64,000 bases of DNA from Collimonas antrihumi. GTDB taxonomy: Bacteria; Pseudomonadota; Gammaproteobacteria; Burkholderiales; Burkholderiaceae_D. Position 1 is the first letter of the stretch; each line of letters opens with the position of its first letter. Made by a program: the position numbers and the translations under genes. Positions 24,738 through 26,474 of the stretch are shown piece after piece. The stretch covers positions 1 through 64,000 of the forward strand of contig NZ_JAGQED010000011.1 of assembly GCF_018304965.1 (NCBI RefSeq), given 5' to 3'. The notes beneath the pieces are model-generated. The model made no database searches, was not told the origin of the DNA, and saw only the letters and a list, made by a program, of their open reading frames with translations.

Positions 24738-25002
24738 CGAGATTGCGTCGGATCAGATTTATCTCATTGAATAATTACTCTCGCTATTTTCCGAAAAAAA
24801 GTCCTCAGAAATATCGCTCCTGAATATCAATGATTCATGCCGGCATGGCTGAAGAAATACTCCAATCGTAATCGTCCGAAATCAGTAGCTGCCTTTCAAT
24901 TTAAGGTTCAGAATCGATTCGTCTTCAGTTCATTTTCACTGATATCCGAGATGAATGCCGAGTGAACTGGCGGATATTTATTGTCGATAAAAAGGATTGG
25001 GT

Positions 25003-26127
25003 ATGGCTAAAGTAACTGGTTTATCCGGGAATGAGATTTTCTGCCTGGCGTTAAAGAATTATTCGGCAGGTGAAATCGTAGTAGGCAACAGCGTCAACTC
25101 GATGGGCTTTCTCGGCGGGATCGGCGCCGGTTTGAAAAACATGCTTGGTGGCGAGATCTCGCAAGTGACTGCGGCGATCCACGAAGGCCGTGCCAGTGCC
25201 TTCGAGCGCATGACCAGGGAGGCGATGCAGGCGGGAGCCTCAGGCGTGGCAGGGGTTTCCAGCGAATTGAGATCGTTCAGCGGCAACACCGAGTTTTTGT
25301 TCGTGGGTTCATGCATCCACGCACGCAACCTGCCAGGCCGCTTCTTCACCACGGCCGGCGATGCGCAAGAACTGTATTGCCACATGGATGCCGGCTATGA
25401 GCCGATCCAGCATGCGTTCGGCAATATCGCCTATTCGATGGGAGTCGGCGGCGGCATCATGGGGTCGCTGAAGACTTTGGTGCGCGGTGAAATCGCAGAG
25501 TACAGCAATATCTTCAATACGACGCGCCACAAGGCGCTTGAACGGCTGGTCAGCCAGGCCAAGGCCGATGGCGCCAATGCCGTAGTCGGTATCCGCACCA
25601 CCATATTGCCATGGATGGGAACGCATGAGATGCTGATGACCGGCACGGCATCGAGGCATAGTGCGCTTCCTGCCAGCGCGGACGGCAATCCGGTCACCAG
25701 CGATTTGACTGGTGAAGAACTGTGGGCAATGACCAGCCTGGGTTATGCGCCAGTCAAATTGCTGATGTCGACTTCAATCTACTCGCTGGGCATGGTGGGC
25801 GGCTTCATGGCGGCATTCAAATCCTTCACCAAGGGCGAGATCAGCGATCTGACTACATTGATTCATGATGCGCGTGAGATTGCGATTGAGCGTTTGAAAA
25901 GTGAGGCTGATGCGCTCAGCGCGGAGGAAGTCGTCGGAGTAAAGACCTATATCGCTGAAATCGGTAGCGGACTGGTCGAGTTCATGGCGATCGGTACCGC
26001 GGTCAAAAAAAATCAAGGCTTTTCGGTCAAGACCGCTGCGCTTCCTGCGCAGGCAATTATTCGCGACAAGGACACCTGGATTGATGGTGATTTCGGTTTT
26101 TCGCTGGATCGCAGCGGAAATCCCTGA
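25003..26127 (+). CDS. Triple YbjQ/UPF0145-domain protein
   Basis: 374 residues from ATG 25003 (AAAAGGA upstream). Three tandem copies of the YbjQ (UPF0145, heavy-metal-binding-like) domain at about 10-105, 120-217 and 236-335. Each repeats the same series: SMGFLGGIGAG/SMGVGGGIMGS/SLGMVGGFMAA, then GEI, then an A-x-ERL helix, then GVxGV and a final GT/GS strand. YbjQ itself is a single domain of about 107 residues that assembles as a pentamer; function is unknown. No signal peptide. A fused trimer is unusual. The downstream 75-codon fragment may be the remains of an operon partner. Confidence 0.85.
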   Translation: MAKVTGLSGNEIFCLALKNYSAGEIVVGNSVNSMGFLGGIGAGLKNMLGGEISQVTAAIHEGRASAFERMTREAMQAGASGVAGVSSELRSFSGNTEFLFVGSCIHARNLPGRFFTTAGDAQELYCHMDAGYEPIQHAFGNIAYSMGVGGGIMGSLKTLVRGEIAEYSNIFNTTRHKALERLVSQAKADGANAVVGIRTTILPWMGTHEMLMTGTASRHSALPASADGNPVTSDLTGEELWAMTSLGYAPVKLLMSTSIYSLGMVGGFMAAFKSFTKGEISDLTTLIHDAREIAIERLKSEADALSAEEVVGVKTYIAEIGSGLVEFMAIGTAVKKNQGFSVKTAALPAQAIIRDKDTWIDGDFGFSLDRSGNP

Positions 26128-26152: not shown

Positions 26153-26380
26153 CAATGTGATTTTGCCGCGCTCTCTGTAGCGCAAAGGCTGGCGGATGCT
26201 CGCCGGCGGGGACGCCTGGCCGAAGCGTTTGAGACGTCCAAGGTGCCGTTGGTGCCGCAGATCCAGATGGGCGGGGGTGGCGACACCAATGCATTCAATA
26301 CTTTGCTGTCGCTGATGGGATCGCTTAAAGCCGGTGAGCTGACTCAGTCGTTGAAACAAGGAGAAACCCCGTGTGTGTAA
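26153..26380 (+). pseudogene. Beheaded gene fragment with SPFH/flotillin-like tail
   Basis: An open frame of 75 codons with no start codon at its head runs from just after a stop at 26150 to TAA at 26378. Its product has clear coding character: RLAEAFETSKVPLVPQIQM, then GGGGDTNAFNTLLSLMG and SLKAGELTQSL. This resembles the C-terminal tail of SPFH (flotillin/band-7-like) proteins, which often end in a PLVPQI-MGGG stretch; the assignment is tentative. It follows the triple-YbjQ gene by 25 bp in the same orientation, suggesting that an internal deletion removed most of a second operon gene. Confidence 0.5.
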
Positions 26381-26441: not shown

Positions 26442-26474
26442 CTGATAAATCACATTTCTAATGTGATTTATCAG
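26442..26474. promoter_or_regulatory. Perfect 14-bp palindrome upstream of tetR-type gene
   Basis: CTGATAAATCACAT-TTCTA-ATGTGATTTATCAG. It lies 70 bp before the TetR gene that heads the efflux operon and is the best candidate operator for autoregulation. It could also end the transcript of the upstream fragment, but no T-run follows. Confidence 0.5.

Follow-up and report, generated by a model that had tools for sequence, protein, structure and literature searches.

The window analysed here, 64,000 nt of one contig of the soil bacterium Collimonas antrihumi, contains a gene whose product is built of three YbjQ-type repeats, followed by the remnant of an SPFH/Band-7 gene (Table 1). Read directly, the frame starts with ATG at 25003 and the last base of its stop codon is 26127, and an AAAGG-type ribosome-binding sequence lies close upstream of the ATG. 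A longer variant of the frame begins with TTG at 24997, which is unlikely to be the start because the rows of close orthologues begin with ATG at the position of 25003. The window gene gives dN/dS values of 0.040-0.055 against four relatives, and on this comparison it is a real gene under purifying selection. By hydropathy (maximum 1.4 over 19 residues) the product has neither a membrane segment nor a membrane tail. No YbjQ domain besides these three was found in the 4.72 Mb genome at E 0.001 or better.

Table 1. Features of the three-repeat YbjQ locus (positions in the window)
Feature	Position	Strand	Evidence
Three-repeat YbjQ protein CDS, 374 aa	25003..26127	+	ORF list, Pfam, dN/dS, hydropathy
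YbjQ repeat 1, residues 5-107	25015..25323	+	Pfam 1.9e-13 for isolated third; helix 9-17 plus strand-helix-strand-strand core in model; C14
YbjQ repeat 2, residues 117-219	25351..25659	+	Pfam 4.6e-16 for isolated third; predicted fold; C126, H127, H176, H208
YbjQ repeat 3, residues 233-337	25699..26013	+	Pfam 5.6e-16 for isolated third; predicted fold; without conserved Cys
Deletion junction	26212..26213		About 1.8 kb, most of the SPFH/Band-7 gene, missing relative to L034 7210-9040
SPFH/Band-7 remnant, C-terminal residues 600-652	26213..26371	+	92% identity, E 1.5e-23, sole match in genome
Terminator-like hairpin, 15 pairs, after SPFH remnant	26442..26474	+	3 such sites against 2.0 expected by chance, weak

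The Pfam family YbjQ_1 (PF01906) matches the whole protein at 3.3e-45 in three stretches, and each third taken alone exceeds the curated cut-off of 23 bits (51.3, 59.8 and 59.5 bits). Aligned with one another, the thirds score 131, 154 and 157, far above their shuffled controls (means 27-29, maxima 51-59; 1000 shuffles each), which rules out a chance likeness. Three YbjQ-type domains are joined covalently in the product of one gene, and the three tandem, diverged copies put forward in the preliminary description are borne out; the outcome that would have spoken against them, a single real YbjQ domain, is excluded by the domain search of each third. All six related YbjQ-type models of NCBIfam score under their own cut-offs (e.g., 84.6 against 181), so that the triple has no curated NCBIfam family of its own. 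The related Pfam family YbjQ_2 (PF23025) matches weakly (0.0027, under the Pfam cut-off), and DUF1471 is absent among the Pfam families that match the protein at E values up to 1.

Compared with the single-domain YbjQ/UPF0145 proteins (PF01906; 1y2i, 1vr4, 2gtc), the repeats have the same Pfam family, the same core fold and the same conserved Gly, Arg, Glu and GT(A) positions; the triple differs in its three fused repeats and in the N-terminal segment and helix added to each. Eukaryotic C2CD5, too, has more than one YbjQ-like domain per chain. The likeness in that case, compared by Pfam names only, lies in PF23025 YbjQ_2 and PF23028 YbjQ_3, and the difference is that C2CD5 is a C2-domain protein. 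The YdgH/SssB-type proteins likewise are described as having three small domains of the same general fold (DUF1471) per chain (PMC4092069); the window protein, in contrast, is without a DUF1471 match, and its sequence belongs to YbjQ_1.

The triple is not confined to this genome. Of the 46 loci that came out of a GTDB scan, 41 are near-full-length orthologues (L034-L073 and L075), including examples from Collimonas, Asticcacaulis, Dyella, Sphingomonas, Methylocystis and Glaciimonas. Triple loci also occur in metagenome bins labelled Acidobacteria, Verrucomicrobiota, Omnitrophota and Gemmatimonadetes, where binning errors are possible. By taxonomic rank, the triple is present in 12/15 genomes of the genus, near full length in 8/145 genomes of the family (one of these with an internal stop), and in 3/200 genomes of the order (G000, G028, G887); 55 of these 200 have YbjQ. 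For the class, the Pfam model finds YbjQ of any kind in 59/274 genomes and three in one frame in four (G000, G160, G185, G277), and at the level of the phylum the orthologue profile matches 116/398 genomes, at full length in only two. YbjQ is present in 10/14 control genomes. The triple YbjQ is a conserved family with a minority layout, and is not unique to C. antrihumi. That it should be a lineage-restricted relic or an annotation accident without function is barely credible: the gene does adjoin a deleted gene and its distribution is patchy, but the low dN/dS values and the 41 near-full-length loci stand against such a reading, which is refuted at the level of the family.

No published description of a triple YbjQ protein was found among the papers listed in the literature searched (under the names YbjQ, UPF0145, DUF74 and C2CD5, with subscription papers mostly and preprints wholly outside its scope). 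The preliminary description had known of no named protein with this layout, and had allowed that triple forms might prove a common, described family. The first statement holds in that no bacterial description turned up, and has to be modified in that the layout marks a conserved family in many bacteria; the second is half borne out, in that the family is conserved, but its layout is a minority one and no published account of it was found in that literature.

Other YbjQ arrangements exist among the surveyed loci, including two-repeat proteins and YbjQ-peptidase fusions; at L129:1759-3135, YbjQ is fused to a Peptidase_M48 domain and lies beside another YbjQ gene. Many class genomes (e.g., L087, L094, L099, L107) have two adjacent single-domain YbjQ genes, one near the Pfam consensus and one diverged, a pairing that suggests hetero-oligomers. 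In Solimicrobium silvestre (L062/L011), one TGA near the N-terminus breaks the orthologue frame, which was excluded from the alignments.

The origin of the repeats was examined with a tree of 128 domains, comprising repeats 1, 2 and 3 at 25 rows each (three divergent triples included), 45 single YbjQ domains and further tandem repeats. A branch separates each of repeats 1, 2 and 3 from the remaining domains (support 100/98, 100/99 and 94/90) and the 45 single domains lie together across a supported branch from the triple (98/94), in a tree that has few columns, some long branches, a bootstrap that is not settled and a repeat-3 branch that is not starred. The divergent triples group repeat by repeat in step with the others. 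Because each repeat forms one tree group, the simplest reading of these sequences would be one old triplication that preceded the spread of the family. Spread by phages or mobile elements was also considered, and is rejected: no relative was found in viral contigs, and matches cover at most 21% of the query in phages and at most 60% in plasmids.

An AlphaFold model of the whole protein was built from a 40-row orthologue alignment (mean pLDDT 83.7, pTM 0.84). In the predicted fold, every repeat runs from a helix through a strand, a short and a long helix to two strands, so that it would comprise the YbjQ core preceded by a short additional segment and helix at its N-terminus. This added part is noteworthy because canonical YbjQ is reported to be without the first strand and helix that are found in DUF1471 and RcsF (PMC4092069). 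The best PDB matches of the full model are the YbjQ structures 1y2i (Z 6.6) and 1vr4 (Z 6.3), followed by DUF74 and RcsF at 5.2, and Foldseek gives a probability of 1.00 but an E value of only 1.2e-3. For repeats 2 and 3 modelled together, the order is RcsF (Z 7.3), DUF74 3qkb (6.4) and 1y2i (6.2). These Z values are middling, yet the family is settled because of the sequence match. The matches of the RcsF periplasmic domain fall on repeat 1 at the lower value and on repeat 2 at the higher, and include the added N-terminal part; RcsF differs in being an outer-membrane lipoprotein, and Z values under 8 may reflect a common arrangement only. The Francisella protein FTT1539c (4qvr) aligns across repeats with model residues 32-335 (180 residues, Z 5.4, rmsd 5.5), and may be another multi-repeat protein of YbjQ-like fold; no paper on the 4qvr structure was found in the literature searched.

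Ordinary single-domain YbjQ is described as a pentamer (PMC4092069, PMC2954204), and in one such pentamer the central part of the subunits is reported to take alternative folds (PMC2954204). The low-confidence stretches of the triple (pLDDT 54-73) include the loops at the contact between repeats, and we take these modelled stretches to be the probable counterpart of that central part.

Two elements of each repeat are predicted to make this contact: the Gly-Glu loop that precedes the long helix (51, 162-163 and 278-279 in repeats 1 to 3) and a segment just ahead of the added helix (3-4, 115-116 and 231-232). In the full model DSSP assigns bridges at 51, 115-116, 162-163 and 231-232, and none at 3-4 or 278-279. 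Read from the secondary-structure strings, the pattern fits a pairing of loop 1 with segment 2 and of loop 2 with segment 3, which would leave segment 1 and loop 3 free. A second AlphaFold model, of residues 112-345 (repeats 2 and 3), loses the bridge at 115-116 and keeps those at 162-163 and 231-232; removal of repeat 1 deletes only the bridge at 115-116, in agreement with the loop(n)-segment(n+1) pairing, as was predicted beforehand. Two lone bridge letters appear in the repeat-3 loop of this second model (276 and 279), and we read them as a probable local turn. Successive repeats are thus predicted to dock through one repeated contact, in which the Gly-Glu loop of repeat n bridges the segment of repeat n+1, and the corresponding edges of the two end repeats (the front of repeat 1, and one edge on repeat 3) are predicted to stay free. 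All 40 rows keep the loop residues G50/G162/G278 and E51/E163/E279, and the free edges are conserved about as well as the used ones (G278 and E279 100%, L7 97%, G6 92%).

Free ends would also be expected if the three repeats were independent beads or a self-contained monomer that had lost ring formation at triplication, and the poor conservation of the linkers and C-terminus (1/9, 0/13 and 1/37 invariant columns) agrees with this. However, the pTM over three domains implies a fixed arrangement, and the strongly conserved free-edge residues have no obvious need in a monomer; we consider this alternative rather unlikely, though the strongest competitor to what follows. The preferred reading is that the triple would be an open arc of three ring protomers, and that two chains, head to tail, would most likely close a six-repeat ring, where ordinary YbjQ uses five identical subunits. 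A second chain is the preferred means of closure because the ends are free and conserved, and in such a ring three positions would be free to differ in sequence and job. The expectation of the preliminary description that the fused copies would assemble differently from a homopentamer receives support in silico only, from two AlphaFold runs, one repeated contact and two free ends.

A ring of five repeats might alternatively be completed by one triple and two ordinary single-domain YbjQ proteins (3 + 1 + 1). A single YbjQ is found in 10/15 genomes of the genus, eight of these alongside the triple, and the five-fold ring is the known state of YbjQ as reported (PMC4092069, PMC2954204). Four genus genomes, C. 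antrihumi among them, have the triple and no single-YbjQ match, and for this reason we count the triple as self-sufficient and regard the mixed ring as distinctly improbable.

Pfam and NCBI label the protein as heavy-metal binding, and its conserved Cys and His residues speak for this: C14, C126 and H176 are invariant in 40/40 rows, H208 is kept in 39 and H127 in 38. These residues differ among the repeats, none being common to all three, and repeat 3 is without a conserved Cys. A metal site formed by the repeat-2 set was considered; only H176 is retained in all three divergent triples checked, and this residue is found in 0/45 single YbjQ domains. Metal-resistance genes do not recur in the neighbour clusters examined. 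In print, a gene with such a label was taken to imply Cd binding, on annotation alone as reported (PMC11678681). The Bacteroides protein BT3410, whose annotation reads heavy metal-binding domain protein, is named in iron stimulon lists (PMC10434189), and E. coli YbjQ is reported to be one of the proteins whose levels increase as persisters recover (PMC6414554); binding was not assessed in either account as far as these sources were available. No experimental test behind the YbjQ heavy-metal-binding label could be traced in the literature searched. As judged from the conserved residues, metal binding is unsupported as a shared feature, and we hold the labelled function to be quite unlikely, while keeping open some metal or redox role for the conserved Cys and His of repeat 2.

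In 11 of the 12 triple-bearing genomes of the genus, a 654-residue SPFH/Band-7 gene (Pfam 2.4e-19) lies downstream of the triple, on the same strand and within a few hundred bases; in two of the 11 it is in two pieces (G799, where it runs across contigs, and G798). In the window no intact SPFH/Band-7 gene lies beside the triple, only the remnant. The blastn blocks against four relatives (L034, L035, L037, L044) stop and resume exactly at 26212/26213, that of L036 stops there and that of L038 resumes there. G143 shows the reverse, an intact SPFH gene next to a decayed triple; since the window keeps the triple only and G143 the intact SPFH gene, the two can be lost separately, and the link between them is not obligatory. 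Outside the genus, neither SPFH nor any other recurring neighbour was seen beside the fetched triples in the loci and neighbour clusters examined, which also show no conserved operon; G107 has a distant SPFH relative (33% identity) about 62 kb away. Pfam scans of selected neighbours, for three divergent triples and for two orthologues, reveal no shared theme.

In three of four divergent triples (L130, L131 and L132) the C-terminus is a strongly hydrophobic tail, at 2.71-2.96 over 19 residues where no row of the A2 alignment exceeds 1.82, and these three are possibly tail-anchored; the fourth, L140, is without such a tail. At L133:3734-6171, two adjacent tandem-YbjQ genes are followed by a PspA/IM30 gene, which starts 15 bp after a two-repeat YbjQ gene, and a PspA match is present in one of three loci with such pairs. 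The paired genes resemble the triple in having tandem YbjQ repeats in one chain; they differ in being split over two genes, with about 2 + 2 repeats by our reading, and their repeats lie outside the triple's three repeat groups in the tree. The idea that L133, L134 and L137 hold 3 + 2 gene pairs totalling five repeats was dropped, as the matches read as 2 + 2 or fewer. A hard-wired SPFH-PspA link is reported in Bacillus subtilis (PMC8581546), and the two are linked also in PMC11237479, in the available text of which a search finds no mention of YbjQ. Together, the SPFH neighbour, the hydrophobic tails and the PspA neighbour hint at the membrane. The ring might then act in the cytosol, as a scaffold on the inner side of the membrane that serves SPFH/PspA-type upkeep of the envelope, and not as a heavy-metal store; this is the least secure step of the proposal.

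Taken as a whole, an old triplication, a repeated contact, an open arc closing as a six-repeat ring and a sub-membrane scaffold make up what we tentatively favour as the best explanation, at somewhat less than even confidence. What is known is the YbjQ domain and its single-domain pentamer; what is new is the conserved three-repeat fusion, which is without a published description in the literature searched. It is a bolder and rather improbable claim that this is an undescribed family in which the protomer of a five-fold ring was triplicated and fused to give a two-chain, six-position, pseudo-symmetric ring with three specialised positions, serving as a sub-membrane scaffold with SPFH and PspA. 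If true, it would be a natural example of gene fusion altering ring number, in a family for which a fold-switching pentamer has already been reported (PMC2954204). YbjQ proteins are widespread, and a fused, asymmetric version would make the question of their function tractable, in that positions could be mutated singly and the ring number measured; the SPFH, tail-anchor and PspA contexts would offer a concrete place to look for that function.
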